Source of the DNA: a virus
IMG/VR virus record: IMGVR_UViG_3300020159_003235
Span: 1 to 39,487 of that record
Strand: one strand, 5' to 3'
DNA: 39,487 nucleotides
Shown here: piece by piece, positions 2,750 through 9,552 of the stretch
How the letters are laid out: each line of letters begins with the position of its first letter
Position numbering within the stretch: position 1 is the stretch's first letter
The notes under the pieces: model-generated
What the model was told of the DNA's origin: nothing
The model's database searches: none
The model's input: the letters and a program-made list of their open reading frames with translations, nothing else
Program-made: the position numbers and the translations under genes

Positions 2750-3694
2750 ATGATTCGAAGTGTGTTGATAACAGGAGGTTCTGGTTATTTGGGGAGTCAT
2801 ATATCCAAACTACTATATCGAAATCAATGGAATATTACTGTTCTTGATTTAGAACAACCTAAACATAACTATTACAATCGATATTATTGCAGTGATATTC
2901 GAGACAGAAATTCTGTTCAAAAAATATTTGATAAAAACAAATTTGATTACGTAATACACCTTGCTTCACGTATCGAGGTTGGAGAGTCGATGAAATATCC
3001 AACCGAATTCTGGGAAGTGAATGTTGGTGGTACAGTAAATCTGTTGAATGTAATGAAGAATTCCGGTAAAAGTAAACTATTATTCTCTTCTACAGCTGGT
3101 CTTTATTGGCCATCAAAAATTCCTTCAAAGGAAGAAGATTGTCATGTAGAAAATTCTGTATACTCAAATACCAAAGTCGCTTGTGAATCGGCCATAAGAG
3201 ATTCGGGAATACATCATATCATATTCAGATATTTCAACCTCGCCGGCGCTGATCCAGAAGGTGATATCGGAGAAAGTCACGAACCAGAAACACATCTTAT
3301 TCCTAACATATTTCAGAAACTAAATAATTTCACGATATATGGAAACGATTACGATACACCTGATGGTACTTGTGTAAGGGACTATGTACATGTTTGTGAT
3401 GTCGCAGATGCTCATTTTAGTGCAATTAAGTATCTGGATTCTGGTCTGCCGTCCGAGATTGTAAATTTGGGATCAGGAGAAGGGCACTCGATTTTACAAG
3501 TAGTACAGATGTTCGAAGATTTATATTGTATCAAAGTGAATTGTCATTTTGGTAATAGACGTAGTGGTGATCCAGATTCTTTGGTTGCGGATATATCACG
3601 AGCTCGAAAGTTGTTGAATTACTCACCCAAACATAATTTGAAATCTATCATAGAAACTGCATATGAATGGCACAAAAAAATTGATCGTACCTGA
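2750..3694 (+). CDS. galE: UDP-glucose 4-epimerase-like (extended SDR) protein
   Basis: An NAD-dependent nucleotide sugar epimerase of the GalE type, which interconverts UDP-glucose and UDP-galactose or a similar pair. The 314-residue protein has the Rossmann NAD-binding motif GGSGYLGSH (9-17), FSSTAGLYW (112-120) with the catalytic Ser/Thr position, YSNTK (138-142) giving the catalytic Tyr138 and Lys142, RYFNLAGADPEGDIGE (160-175) and CVRDYVHVCDVADAH (208-222), all typical of GalE. E. coli GalE is 338 residues, so this is a full-length enzyme. It sits directly after a glycosyltransferase, which suggests supply of its sugar donor. The last 32 bases overlap the next gene. The exact substrate is not determined by these motifs. 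Confidence 0.88.
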   Translation: MIRSVLITGGSGYLGSHISKLLYRNQWNITVLDLEQPKHNYYNRYYCSDIRDRNSVQKIFDKNKFDYVIHLASRIEVGESMKYPTEFWEVNVGGTVNLLNVMKNSGKSKLLFSSTAGLYWPSKIPSKEEDCHVENSVYSNTKVACESAIRDSGIHHIIFRYFNLAGADPEGDIGESHEPETHLIPNIFQKLNNFTIYGNDYDTPDGTCVRDYVHVCDVADAHFSAIKYLDSGLPSEIVNLGSGEGHSILQVVQMFEDLYCIKVNCHFGNRRSGDPDSLVADISRARKLLNYSPKHNLKSIIETAYEWHKKIDRT

Positions 3695-4256
3695 AAGAGA
3701 CAAAGAAGAAGATACTCCAGTGGAAAAAATTGAAGAGACTTTTCATAGCAATAAAATACATTTTTTATCCGGTACAATAGAACCGGAAAATGTAAAGAAA
3801 GCAATACAATGGATCTTATACGAGAATATAGTAAAAAATCACACAGTGAAATGCCTGACTTTATATATAAATTCAGAAGGTGGAGATTTATATGAGGCGT
3901 TCGGTTTGATTGATATAATGAAAGCCAGTGAATACCCTATAAGAACTATAGGATTAGGTTCTGTTATGTCAGCGGCATTTTTAATTTTTTGTGCTGGAGA
4001 AAAAGGACAAAGAATTATCGGAAAAAATACAGGTATTATGATTCACCAATACCATGATGAATTTCAAGGTAAACACCATGATATCAAATCTCGCATAAAA
4101 GAATCTGATAACTGTAATAACAGAATGCTGGATATTATTCAAAAAGCTTCAACTGTTGATATGAAAACTGTGAAATCACAACTTCTCCATTCGAGTGATG
4201 TTTGGCTTAAAGCGGAAGATATGATATCTCTCGGTCTAGCAGATCAAATTCTATAA
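3663..4256 (+). CDS. clpP: ClpP-like serine protease
   Basis: A 197-residue homologue of the ClpP peptidase. INSEGGDLYEAF (70-81) matches the ClpP substrate-binding loop INSPGG. The catalytic triad can be read as Ser103 (GSVMSAAFLIF), His128 (IMIHQY) and Asp179 (HSSDVWLKAEDM), all in the usual order and spacing. The C-terminal end SLGLADQIL is also typical. In bacteria ClpP degrades proteins delivered by ClpX or ClpA; no phage ATPase partner is visible here. It could act with the host unfoldase or be a processing protease. The start at 3663 lies inside galE, 32 bases before its stop, with no clear Shine-Dalgarno sequence. A TTG at 3681 is a possible alternative start. T4-like phages normally use the unrelated gp21 protease for the head. 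Confidence 0.9.
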   Translation: MNGTKKLIVPERDKEEDTPVEKIEETFHSNKIHFLSGTIEPENVKKAIQWILYENIVKNHTVKCLTLYINSEGGDLYEAFGLIDIMKASEYPIRTIGLGSVMSAAFLIFCAGEKGQRIIGKNTGIMIHQYHDEFQGKHHDIKSRIKESDNCNNRMLDIIQKASTVDMKTVKSQLLHSSDVWLKAEDMISLGLADQIL

Positions 4257-7577: not shown

Positions 7578-7875
7578 ATTTAGAGATAACGAAACAGATG
7601 AAATTTTTGAAGTTTCTATGAAAATTTCCGAGAAGTTTGATTTTCTTTCTGCCAATCCAAATTATGAGTCTGTAATCCAGGCTCCTTCGATTGTCTCTGG
7701 CGTATCTGTCAAAGGGAAAGTGCCTGATGGTTTTAAGGAAGTGTTATCTAGAATTTCAGAACAAAATAAGAACACTGAACTGGCTGATCGATACGGAAAG
7801 AAGTCGATTAAAGAAGCCCGCACAAGTGAAGTGGTTCGTAGGCACGTAGACAAAGTAACAAAGAGATTGAATTGA
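7564..7875 (+). CDS. FmdB-like phage protein without zinc cysteines
   Basis: A 103-residue protein beginning MPIYRFRDNETDEIFEVSMKISEK. This start pattern (MP-Y-F, then a -E-MSI- segment) and the later SGVSVKGKVPDGFKEVLSRISEQN and KSIKEARTSEVVRRH are those of small phage proteins related to FmdB zinc-ribbon proteins. The usual CxxC pairs are absent, so it would not bind zinc. The ATG at 7564 fits this N-terminus; a longer in-frame version from 7513 would not. It overlaps both neighbours (14 bases and 4 bases). Function unknown. Confidence 0.7.
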   Translation: MPIYRFRDNETDEIFEVSMKISEKFDFLSANPNYESVIQAPSIVSGVSVKGKVPDGFKEVLSRISEQNKNTELADRYGKKSIKEARTSEVVRRHVDKVTKRLN

Positions 7876-8555
7876 GAGTATTTGAACATATTAAACTTCC
7901 AGAATTGCAGTTTGATCTGGAATCGGAAACTAACGAGCACGGTCGTAAATATTTTCTGCCTGATGGGCGGACTTACGATTCTGTTACCACCATACTTTCG
8001 TATAATAAAGACGAAACGGCGTTAATTAAGTGGCGTGAAAGAGTAGGTGAAGTTGAAGCGAATAGAATCACGAAAAAATCATCAGATCGTGGTACAAAAT
8101 TGCATGAAGTTTGTGAGAGGTATCTATTGAATGAATTAACAGAAATGAAAATTCGCATGATGATGCCTGACATAAAAGATTTCTTCACACAGCTGAGACC
8201 TTTTATTGACACTAATGTTGGACTAGTGTACGGCCTCGAACAAGTATTATATAGTGATAAATATAAAATGGCAGGTCGTACAGACACAATAGCTGTGTGG
8301 AATAATAAACTCTCGATTATTGATTATAAAAATTCGATCAAAGAGAAGAAGGAAGAATGGATTGAAAATTACTTCATTCAATGTACCGCATATTCAGTAA
8401 TGTTCACTGAGATTACTGGATTACCGATTGAACAAATTGTTGTTCTTATCGCAAACGAAGAAGGTACACCTCAGGTTTTTGTAAGAGAAGTGAATAAATA
8501 CTTACCTATATTCGAGGAAGTGATTCATAATTACCACAATTCTTCTAGGATTTAG
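7872..8555 (+). CDS. PD-(D/E)XK (RecB/Cas4-like) nuclease, TTG start
   Basis: A 227-residue nuclease of the PD-(D/E)XK superfamily, likely a DNA exonuclease or recombination nuclease. Motifs in order are H78 (GTKLHE), E123 (GLEQVLY), D138 (AGRTD), D151-Y-K153 (IIDYKNS) and Q170-xxx-Y174 (QCTAYSVMF), the full set seen in RecB/Cas4-type phage nucleases. The start is the TTG at 7872, overlapping the upstream stop (TTGA). No in-frame ATG precedes H78, and no Shine-Dalgarno sequence is seen, so translation is probably coupled. The permuted tmRNA begins right after its stop codon and is probably co-transcribed. Confidence 0.88.
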   Translation: MRVFEHIKLPELQFDLESETNEHGRKYFLPDGRTYDSVTTILSYNKDETALIKWRERVGEVEANRITKKSSDRGTKLHEVCERYLLNELTEMKIRMMMPDIKDFFTQLRPFIDTNVGLVYGLEQVLYSDKYKMAGRTDTIAVWNNKLSIIDYKNSIKEKKEEWIENYFIQCTAYSVMFTEITGLPIEQIVVLIANEEGTPQVFVREVNKYLPIFEEVIHNYHNSSRI

Positions 8556-8559
8556 TTTT

Positions 8560-8630
8560 ATACCAAAGAATTCGTTGAAGGTATAGTAGTGACGGACAGG
8601 ACGGGAGGTGACTGCTCCCCAGCTCCACCA
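8560..8630 (+). ncRNA. ssrA: tmRNA acceptor piece
   Basis: It contains a small hairpin (ATACC 8560-8564 with GGTAT 8580-8584), the T-arm (GGGAG 8603-8607, 7-base loop GTGACTG 8608-8614, CTCCC 8615-8619) and the acceptor strand CAGCTCC-A-CCA ending at 8630. The T-loop does not follow the usual TTCRANY pattern. UCGUUG (8572-8577) can pair with CAAUGA (8733-8738) of the coding piece and may be the helix that holds the two pieces together. The 5' end is approximate. Confidence 0.8.
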
Positions 8631-8631
8631 A

Positions 8632-8695
8632 AAGTATATTAGCCCGATAGGACGCTCTAAAGTCTAAACTGGGAAAACTGAGTTCTAGTATACTT
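8632..8695 (+). other. tmRNA internal spacer removed during maturation
   Basis: AAGTATATTAG (8632-8642) pairs with CTAGTATACTT (8685-8695) over 11 base pairs with one G-U. This hairpin stacks beyond the acceptor stem and joins the encoded CCA to the 5' GGGG. Such a closed precursor is expected for a permuted tmRNA, from which RNase P would release the 5' end at 8701 and 3' processing would expose the CCA at 8630. Confidence 0.75.
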
Positions 8696-8700
8696 CTGAT

Positions 8701-8872
8701 GGGGCTGAACAATGTCGAATCGACTGACGGAACAATGATGCTGGAGAATCGTGAAGCACTCACGTTAAATAGCGCAAAAAACGTAAATGCAAATGACGAA
8801 AATTTTGCTTTAGCAGCGTAATAACTGCTTAGGGTATTCGGTTGGTTTCCCTCGTAACAGAATTAACCAACC
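8701..8872 (+). ncRNA. ssrA: tmRNA coding piece with two pseudoknots
   Basis: It starts with GGGGCTG. PK1: TGCT (8739-8742) pairs with AGCA (8755-8758), and CGTGA (8750-8754) with TCACG (8760-8764), an interleaved H-type knot just before the tag, as in all tmRNAs. PK2 after the stop codons: AGGG (8831-8834) pairs with CCCT (8849-8852), and GGTTGGTT (8840-8847) with AACCAACC (8865-8872). The 3' end is approximate. These pairings were found by eye; no folding was run. Confidence 0.82.
8789..8824 (+). other. tmRNA tag reading frame, ANDENFALAA
   Basis: The resume codon GCA at 8789-8791 is followed by AAT GAC GAA AAT TTT GCT, then TTA GCA GCG and two TAA stops. With the alanine carried by the tmRNA the full tag is AANDENFALAA, one residue (F for Y) away from the E. 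coli tag AANDENYALAA. The ALAA end is the signal read by ClpXP and ClpAP. Confidence 0.93.
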
Positions 8873-8892
8873 ACTAATTCAAGGATTATATT

Positions 8893-9552
8893 ATGAAAGT
8901 ATATTTGAACAAATACAGAAGCCACTGGTTGAGTCCCTACACGATTTTAGAAAAAGTCTTTTTCTGGCGTGAGATTGATTATGATGAACCTGTTATCGAG
9001 AGATGGTCCGGTCGTCTAAATCCAATTTGTGAAGTGATTCAGGAAACTTTGGACATGTTACATCCAAAAATTGATTATGTTAAGATTGATTCTTGGGACA
9101 CTTGGTCTATGGATAATACCTTAGCGAAAATTGTTTTACCTATGTTGAAACAACTTCGTGATACTAAAAATGGTTCACCTATGGTCGACCTCGAAGATGT
9201 TCCTGAACATTTGCGAACTACAAACACTCTTGAATATGATGAACAAATGGTTTTTGACTTCTACAAAGAGGAAAAATTATTTGAAGACGAATATCCAGAT
9301 ATTCACGCTCGATGGGATTGGATTCTGAATGAAATGATTTGGGCGTTTGAACAGAAAGTGAATGATGATGCTGAAGGACAATTCTTTGATCATTCCGGGT
9401 ACGGAAACGATTTTGGTAAAGAATGGTTGAAAGATATATCCAAATCTGAGAGTAAACTCAAAATTGATTGGGATGGACTAAAAGCATGGCAAAAACGCAA
9501 GGAAAACGGTTTTCGCCTGTTTGGAGTTTATTTTGAAGGACTTTGGGACTAA
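8893..9552 (+). CDS. Conserved phage protein of unknown function (SPYTILEKV family)
   Basis: A 219-residue acidic protein. I recognise the signature HWLSPYTILEKVFFW, then IDYVKIDSWDTWSMDNTLAKIVLPMLKQLRD, GSPMVDLEDVPEHLR, ARWDWILNEMIWAFE and the end NGFRLFGVYFEGLWD from many T4-like and other marine phages. Its role is unknown. The high tryptophan and aspartate content and the fixed motif order suggest a structured enzyme-like or binding protein. AAGGA (8881-8885) lies 7 bases before the ATG. It follows the tmRNA directly and may share its transcript. Confidence 0.82.
   Translation: MKVYLNKYRSHWLSPYTILEKVFFWREIDYDEPVIERWSGRLNPICEVIQETLDMLHPKIDYVKIDSWDTWSMDNTLAKIVLPMLKQLRDTKNGSPMVDLEDVPEHLRTTNTLEYDEQMVFDFYKEEKLFEDEYPDIHARWDWILNEMIWAFEQKVNDDAEGQFFDHSGYGNDFGKEWLKDISKSESKLKIDWDGLKAWQKRKENGFRLFGVYFEGLWD

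Follow-up and report, generated by a model that had tools for sequence, protein, structure and literature searches.

Locus organization and genomic neighbourhood

The window, that is, the whole stretch of 39,487 nucleotides analysed here (IMG/VR record IMGVR_UViG_3300020159_003235, positions 1 to 39,487), is a fragment of a T4-like phage genome. It carries an exonuclease of phrog_298, a tmRNA gene, a phrog_11543 gene, a cell wall hydrolase, two transcription regulators, one of which is of the late-promoter gp33 kind, gp59, gp32 and tail genes. A sequence-only reading of this DNA had placed a permuted ssrA between a nuclease gene and a conserved phage gene, with a ClpP-like protein encoded upstream, and the family assignments agree with it on all three genes. 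The features of the locus, all on the + strand, are:

3663-4256, +: ClpP-like serine peptidase (PF00574, E 1.4e-30), with a Ser, His, Asp triad that aligns with bacterial ClpP
7872-8555, +: PD-(D/E)XK exonuclease, phrog_298, the left neighbour; the same neighbour is present in L279, L248 and Melnitz
8556-8630, +: acceptor piece, the 3' half of the tRNA-like domain, from the RF04321 and RF01850 alignments; 5' end nominal
8603-8619, +: T-arm, with a perfect 5-bp stem GGGAG/CTCCC and the non-canonical loop GTGACTG (8608-8614), from the sequence and the T-loop tally
8620-8630, +: acceptor 3' strand CAGCTCC (8620-8626) and encoded ACCA (8627-8630), from sequence and fold
8631-8700, +: spacer (intervening segment) of 70 nt, non-coding, with closing stem 8632-8642/8685-8695 and an inner stem-loop, from fold and sequence
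8701-8881, +: coding piece, from the RF01850 match that extends to 8881; 3' end approximate
8701-8707, +: acceptor 5' strand GGGGCTG, pairing with 8620-8626 and including G3-U70, from sequence and fold
8708-8723, +: D-loop-like segment that exceeds those of relatives by about 4 nt and is devoid of the usual GG/AG
8789-8821, +: tag frame ANDENFALAA, from GCA at 8789 to the stop TAA at 8819-8821, with a second TAA at 8822-8824, from the sequence and the RF01850/RF04321 alignment
8831-8872, +: 3' pseudoknot, 8840-8847/8865-8872 plus AGGG 8831-8834/CCCT 8849-8852, from the fold and direct complementarity
8893-9552, +: phrog_11543, a conserved phage gene without assigned function, the right neighbour

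The arrangement nuclease-ssrA-gp33-gp59-gp32 is common to the window, the cultured phage Melnitz and the alpha-type marine relatives L279 and L248 (L numbers denote the compared records, many of which are metagenomic contigs). The likeness to Melnitz that had been noticed earlier extends to the order of the genes around ssrA, namely PDDEXK nuclease, ssrA, late-transcription coactivator, gp59 and gp32. The close relatives of the window possess beta-type tmRNAs, unlike the alpha-type Melnitz. A tmRNA above the cut-off was recovered in 33 of the 44 records tested, and nearly all share the neighbour gene phrog_11543. One could imagine that imprecise excision from the chromosome of a host left the phage with the tmRNA as a passenger without selected function, given that integration often takes place at tmRNA genes and that host fragments are known in prophages (PMC9004378). 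However, the conservation of the locus in T4-like phages, seen in those 33 of 44 records, and a pattern of variation that preserves the structure (see below) make such an origin highly improbable.

Identity and anatomy of the two-piece tmRNA

A search with the covariance models for permuted tmRNAs, which had been suggested as a check, matched the Rfam family RF04321 (tmRNA_permuted) over its full model (1-213) at 8570-8821 of the window, with 86.9 bits against a cut-off of 47 and an E-value of 1.7e-15 for the whole window. This score and the sequence itself bear out the phage-encoded, permuted two-piece tmRNA that had been proposed at 8556-8872. The beta_tmRNA model RF01850 is also aligned over its full length, to 8530-8881, at 68.1 bits (E 1.6e-20), which is under its own cut-off of 84, and in the covariance search it scores higher than the alpha model RF01849. 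The subtype is hence closest to the beta model, whose cut-off it does not reach, and not to the alpha type of SAR11 and Melnitz; several relatives, including L084, L098 and L090, score 88-183 bits with RF01850. The beta-like subtype hints at a betaproteobacterial host.

ARAGORN did not call the tmRNA gene in the window, probably because its T-loop is GTGACTG rather than TTCRANY and because its D-loop side exceeds that of relatives by about 4 nt. Taken alone this negative call would suit a chance resemblance or a tRNA fragment, but that explanation is refuted by the E-value of 1.7e-15 over the full model, the fold z of -4.4, the correct tag and the synteny.

The acceptor stem that had been paired base by base across the spacer is complete, with 7 of 7 pairs between 8620-8626 and 8701-8707 including G3-U70, and the 11-bp hairpin described in the spacer corresponds to the closing helix 8632-8642/8685-8695. 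Acceptor and spacer together fold at -32.3 kcal/mol, as against -17.7 +/- 3.3 kcal/mol for shuffled sequences (z -4.4), a value equalled by 0 of 200 shuffles. The tag frame expected in the coding part is present as ANDENFALAA, terminated by TAA TAA; searches for this peptide and close variants, using degenerate patterns, gave no match in 84,980 bacterial and archaeal genomes. With respect to the two pseudoknots that had been proposed, the 3' one is backed by complementarity, whereas the region of the first contains only a 5-bp hairpin (8750-8754/8760-8764) without a clear second helix. The description of the gene as a complete permuted ssrA likewise stands in part: the acceptor, T-stem, spacer stem and tag are intact, but the elbow is aberrant, lacking C56 and having an altered D-loop, and the inter-piece helix is weak. 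When the 70-nt spacer was read by eye, no ORF of useful length was found in it.

An aberrant elbow in the window copy

The T-loop GTGACTG is the sole case without C56 among 93 distinct tmRNAs, the residue being kept in all 92 others. In the relatives the elbow contact 18-55 covaries, such that a T-loop with TTC is accompanied by GG in the D-loop, and one with GGC or TGC by AG; the D-loop segment of the window offers neither the GG nor the AG partner. Hence the window tmRNA lacks the canonical tRNA elbow (18-55 and 19-56), a feature that is usual in the family and lies outside the Rfam criterion. We also considered a compensatory C19-G56 pair that might rescue the elbow, and no alignment of the D-loop convincingly supports it. 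Beyond the acceptor stem, the duplex between the two pieces is no better than in shuffled sequences.

These peculiarities raise the prospect that the window copy might be an altered allele or one in decay. In the strongest form of this explanation the copy would no longer support trans-translation and the locus would be kept as a recombination landing place between phages, for which the unique T-loop, the altered D-loop, the weak inter-piece helix and the wholesale exchange of alleles between near relatives (see below) might be adduced. On the other hand, the window tmRNA is divergent from every relative, with an acceptor piece that is at most 73% identical, and yet it retains a perfect acceptor stem and T-stem, the 11-bp spacer stem, an LAA-ending tag and the 3' pseudoknot, which is more than would be expected of a freely decaying gene. 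An identical tmRNA is carried by an independent metagenome contig; this constitutes weak evidence against decay, as that contig is 99.88% identical overall to the window. Taken together, we consider a degenerate allele possible but unlikely, and the preserved sequence features suggest that the window gene probably works as a tmRNA.

Family-wide variation, tags and cassette exchange

Among the 93 distinct tmRNAs, each of the acceptor pairs 4-69, 5-68 and 6-67 is represented by several Watson-Crick or G-U types. As 7/7 acceptor pairing with GGG and U70 served as the filter for this tally, the result lies solely in the range of pair types seen at these three positions. The tags are highly diverse, with 70 different peptides in the 93 tmRNAs, including divergent phage examples such as GEDRLAA, ANDNRFLMAA and ANDESYRIAA, and 79 of the 93 end in LAA. 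This diversity might be taken to mean that the phage tmRNA counters the host system, either by competing for SmpB, AlaRS or ribosomes or by re-tagging with a phage-specific tag; furthermore, mycobacteriophage DS6A possesses a tmRNA without a tag that is inhibitory to the cell's own tmRNA in E. coli (PMC11915505). Nevertheless, ANDENFALAA of the window differs little from the ordinary tag ANDENYALAA, and an LAA terminus in 79/93 tags is the usual ClpX signal that a normal function predicts. An anti-host role therefore appears improbable, and ribosome rescue of the ordinary kind is the function that we favor.

Comparison of the nearest relatives points to mobility of the locus. The records L003 and L004, at 90-92% DNA identity, can be aligned to the window as far as 8552, at the nuclease gene's end, and the alignment resumes at 8807, inside the tag; in the interval 8552-8807 they show no match to the window and contain a different tmRNA. 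To trace such events more widely, 92 tmRNAs were split into four modules, namely the acceptor piece, the spacer, the 5' coding part and the tag part, and 28 tmRNA pairs were found to combine a module of at least 95% identity with another of at most 68%. For instance, in L147 and L108 the spacer alone differs, whereas in L208/L190 and L146/L180 it is the one module in common. As read from these alignments, the locus is a recombining cassette in which whole tmRNA alleles are swapped, and in which spacers, bodies and tags are exchanged separately as well. Neither this exchange nor the spacer genes of the relatives described below figured in the sequence-only reading.

In several phage tmRNAs (L090 and L098, as well as L091-L094, L099 and L100) ACCT is encoded in place of ACCA, and the spacer is only 26 nt long. 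In these tmRNAs the CCA would need to be completed by a host enzyme.

Genes nested in the spacers of phage tmRNAs

To survey spacer contents, a pattern scan of IMG/VR was combined with relatives identified through the neighbour genes, which gave 79 non-redundant spacers of 25-192 nt, including those of the window, Melnitz and Cupriavidus; the spacer of L131, an unparsed locus outside this set, is about 231 nt. In 96% of the spacers the closing stem comprises 8 pairs or more, as opposed to 24% once 3' ends are exchanged among the loci. Small ORFs occur in 17 of the 79 spacers, the cultured phage Melnitz being among the carriers, and of the 26 spacers of at least 95 nt, 16 have a reading frame longer than in at least 95% of shuffled versions. 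These ORFs fall into at least 8 unrelated families, mostly of putative single-span membrane proteins. Typically a Shine-Dalgarno sequence lies right after the CCA, in the form CCA AAAGGAGATT...ATG. In most cases the frame is closed by the TGA of TTTTTGAT, immediately 5' of G1. In several families the Shine-Dalgarno sequence lies within the closing stem.

Family A has a consensus of about MKNPLV..VSKWMF.AYI.WSICADI.LLAGI.YL.FF and 199 relatives among IMG/VR candidate stretches. Eighty of these loci were fetched (L234-L313; e.g. L248:2501-2611 and L279:2501-2611), and they encode proteins of 34-49 aa with one hydrophobic span and the WSICADI motif. In 64 of the 80 the gene is situated between CCA and G1 and 2 are at contig edges, while the remaining 14, sorted by reading the sequences, comprise 4 with a coding piece but no upstream acceptor piece and 10 that are free-standing. 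In the case of family C, 13 of 16 loci are inside spacers. For family A pN/pS is 0.24 in frame (0.19 and 0.23 in two length classes) versus 1.3-3.2 in the other frames, and for family C it is 0.25 versus 1.1-1.4, so that, as judged from these ratios, both families are under clear purifying selection. The coding case for the other families is made by ORF length relative to shuffles, together with two variants each for a few of them. Family E is carried by L097, L102 and L105, which are closely related to the window phage and share its neighbour gene.

None of the families gave a significant match in Pfam or PHROG, tblastn did not recover family A from phage records, and no Rfam family was detected at cut-offs inside the spacers of the 20 loci scanned. 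We also entertained the idea that non-coding spacers are structured RNAs in their own right, but their inner parts hardly beat shuffled sequences (mean z -0.25; window -0.25).

Several additional observations pertain to individual loci. A number of family A members possess a second, overlapping upstream frame (..ILGxxDEEPSSxK) that begins at the Shine-Dalgarno site. The four family A genes accompanied by a coding piece without an upstream acceptor (L308, L309, L258 and L297) are seen as broken or rearranged tmRNA genes that retain the micro-protein. Free-standing homologues of families A and C are found in L275, L277, L289, L290, L302, L306, L292, L294, L296 and L301, and in L320, L321 and L329.

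In Melnitz (MZ577097) the ssrA spacer contains an unannotated ORF, MFKWLSKTRLVVITRDYFRERNRKADAKIPKYLSGTRSVYD, located after GGAGAAG and without a stop up to G1; it lies within the annotated SsrA at 45984-46436 (L332:1985-2437). Likewise, the spacer frames of L132 and L145 have no stop before G1. The cargo is not always a protein gene: the spacer of L106 contains a complete tRNA-Arg(CCG) at 1678-1751 on the - strand, inside a tmRNA at 1410-1854, and ARAGORN calls both. The L106 tmRNA also does not encode the final A (ACCT). In seven isolated phages with spacers of 93-118 nt no convincing spacer gene was found. Four phages of Roseobacter, Rhodobacter, Ruegeria and Mesorhizobium (L335, L336, L337 and L340), whose tmRNAs are unannotated in their records, share a GAWGAGGC-like motif in spacers of 93-111 nt, which is perhaps a common RNA element.

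Functional implications

Our main reading, to which we assign a probability of roughly 0.7, is that the window encodes a functional permuted two-piece tmRNA at a conserved T4-like locus extending from the nuclease to gp33-gp59-gp32, and that this locus is a recombining cassette whose spacer serves as a docking place in about a fifth of the cases sampled. The anatomy, the covarying pairs, the tag frame, the synteny, the exchange of modules and the selection on spacer genes are seen in the sequences, whereas the processing, charging, tagging and spacer translation outlined below are inferred, as is a benefit to infection. The gene would most likely be transcribed as a single precursor, which host tRNA-processing enzymes would cut after the CCA (8630) and before G1 (8701); the spacer would then be discarded and the two pieces would pair. 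Host AlaRS would charge the molecule by virtue of G3-U70, and together with SmpB of the host it would rescue stalled ribosomes and append ANDENFALAA, directing the products to ClpXP-type proteolysis in the host. The dependence on host SmpB is suggested by its absence from the 18 tmRNA-bearing phage records searched, several of which are of 150-340 kb. Eleven of the same 18 records contain a ClpP-family gene, indicating a loose association of phage ClpP with tmRNA, and any link to tagging, including the earlier idea that tagged peptides might be fed to ClpP, is only suggestive. In the window the ClpP gene (3663-4256) adjoins genes for a sugar epimerase and a glycosyltransferase, and no obvious Clp ATPase is encoded within the window.

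Where the spacer contains a gene, the template for its translation might be the precursor or the spacer after excision. In those families in which the closing stem contains the Shine-Dalgarno sequence, translation would depend on the opening or removal of this stem, and the excised spacer RNAs of Melnitz, L132 and L145, having no stop codon, might themselves be non-stop substrates of the tmRNA. These considerations lead to the proposal, for which we see roughly even odds, that the spacer is a cargo slot for exchangeable small genes (at least 8 unrelated micro-protein families and a tRNA), and that the released spacer or the precursor acts as a mini-mRNA which couples micro-protein expression to tmRNA processing.

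The spacers of two-piece tmRNAs have been regarded as throw-away segments, and the presence of selected micro-protein genes in them means that a class of phage genes is concealed by the annotation of tmRNAs. These genes are missing from Pfam and PHROGs, and even in a sequenced isolate they had escaped annotation. It also suggests that an RNA-processing event may gate the expression of a protein. As Melnitz is a carrier that is cultured with its host, the RNA ends, footprints and peptides could be studied directly. In addition, the swapped alleles and tags of near-identical phages provide a natural series for understanding why lytic phages keep a ribosome-rescue RNA.

Comparison with known tmRNA systems

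Two-piece tmRNAs of phages are already known: a 2021 survey of 18,146 phage genomes yielded 133 unique tmRNA structures, for 53 of which a two-piece form was suggested (PMC9004378), and a 2025 database lists 79 phage tmRNA sequences of all forms (PMC11915505). The window gene extends this known kind and, by itself, is another phage tmRNA of an already known type with an odd elbow. With the Rfam family RF04321, in which the alpha (RF01849), beta (RF01850) and cyano (RF01851) types are merged, it shares the order acceptor-intervening-coding, G3-U70, the tag, the tRNA-like pairs and a full-length match, and it differs in its non-canonical T-loop and D-loop, in falling under the beta_tmRNA cut-off and in being phage-encoded. 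Melnitz, a phage of Methylophilales/OM43, is similarly a T4-like phage with a permuted ssrA at the same locus; its RNA, however, is of the alpha type, has the tag ANDNYVPVDYALAA, is followed downstream by a glutamine riboswitch and harbors an ORF in the spacer, whereas the window RNA is nearest to the beta type and its spacer is non-coding. The beta-type tmRNA on a megaplasmid of Cupriavidus sp. KK10 (L331), the one bacterial copy compared here, displays the same architecture, with GAT just before G1, a hairpin closing the spacer and the tag ANDEKFALAA, but its spacer is about 32 nt long and without cargo, in comparison to 25-231 nt in phages.

As for nested genes, a literature search, with subscription papers mostly outside its reach, turned up no description of tmRNA spacers that harbor protein genes. 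The closest parallel is GCA-2688965 sp002688965.2, in which a tRNA-Ala is nested whole in the spacer of a permuted tmRNA, as is the tRNA in L106, and which was called a unique feature among 97,179 tmRNAs (PMC11915505). That assembly is nominally archaeal, whereas L106 is a phage contig with tRNA-Arg(CCG), and other phage spacers hold protein genes. The window spacer itself is free of cargo; across its relatives, the nesting of small genes under selection within a tmRNA spacer that is itself exchangeable represents an undescribed organization.
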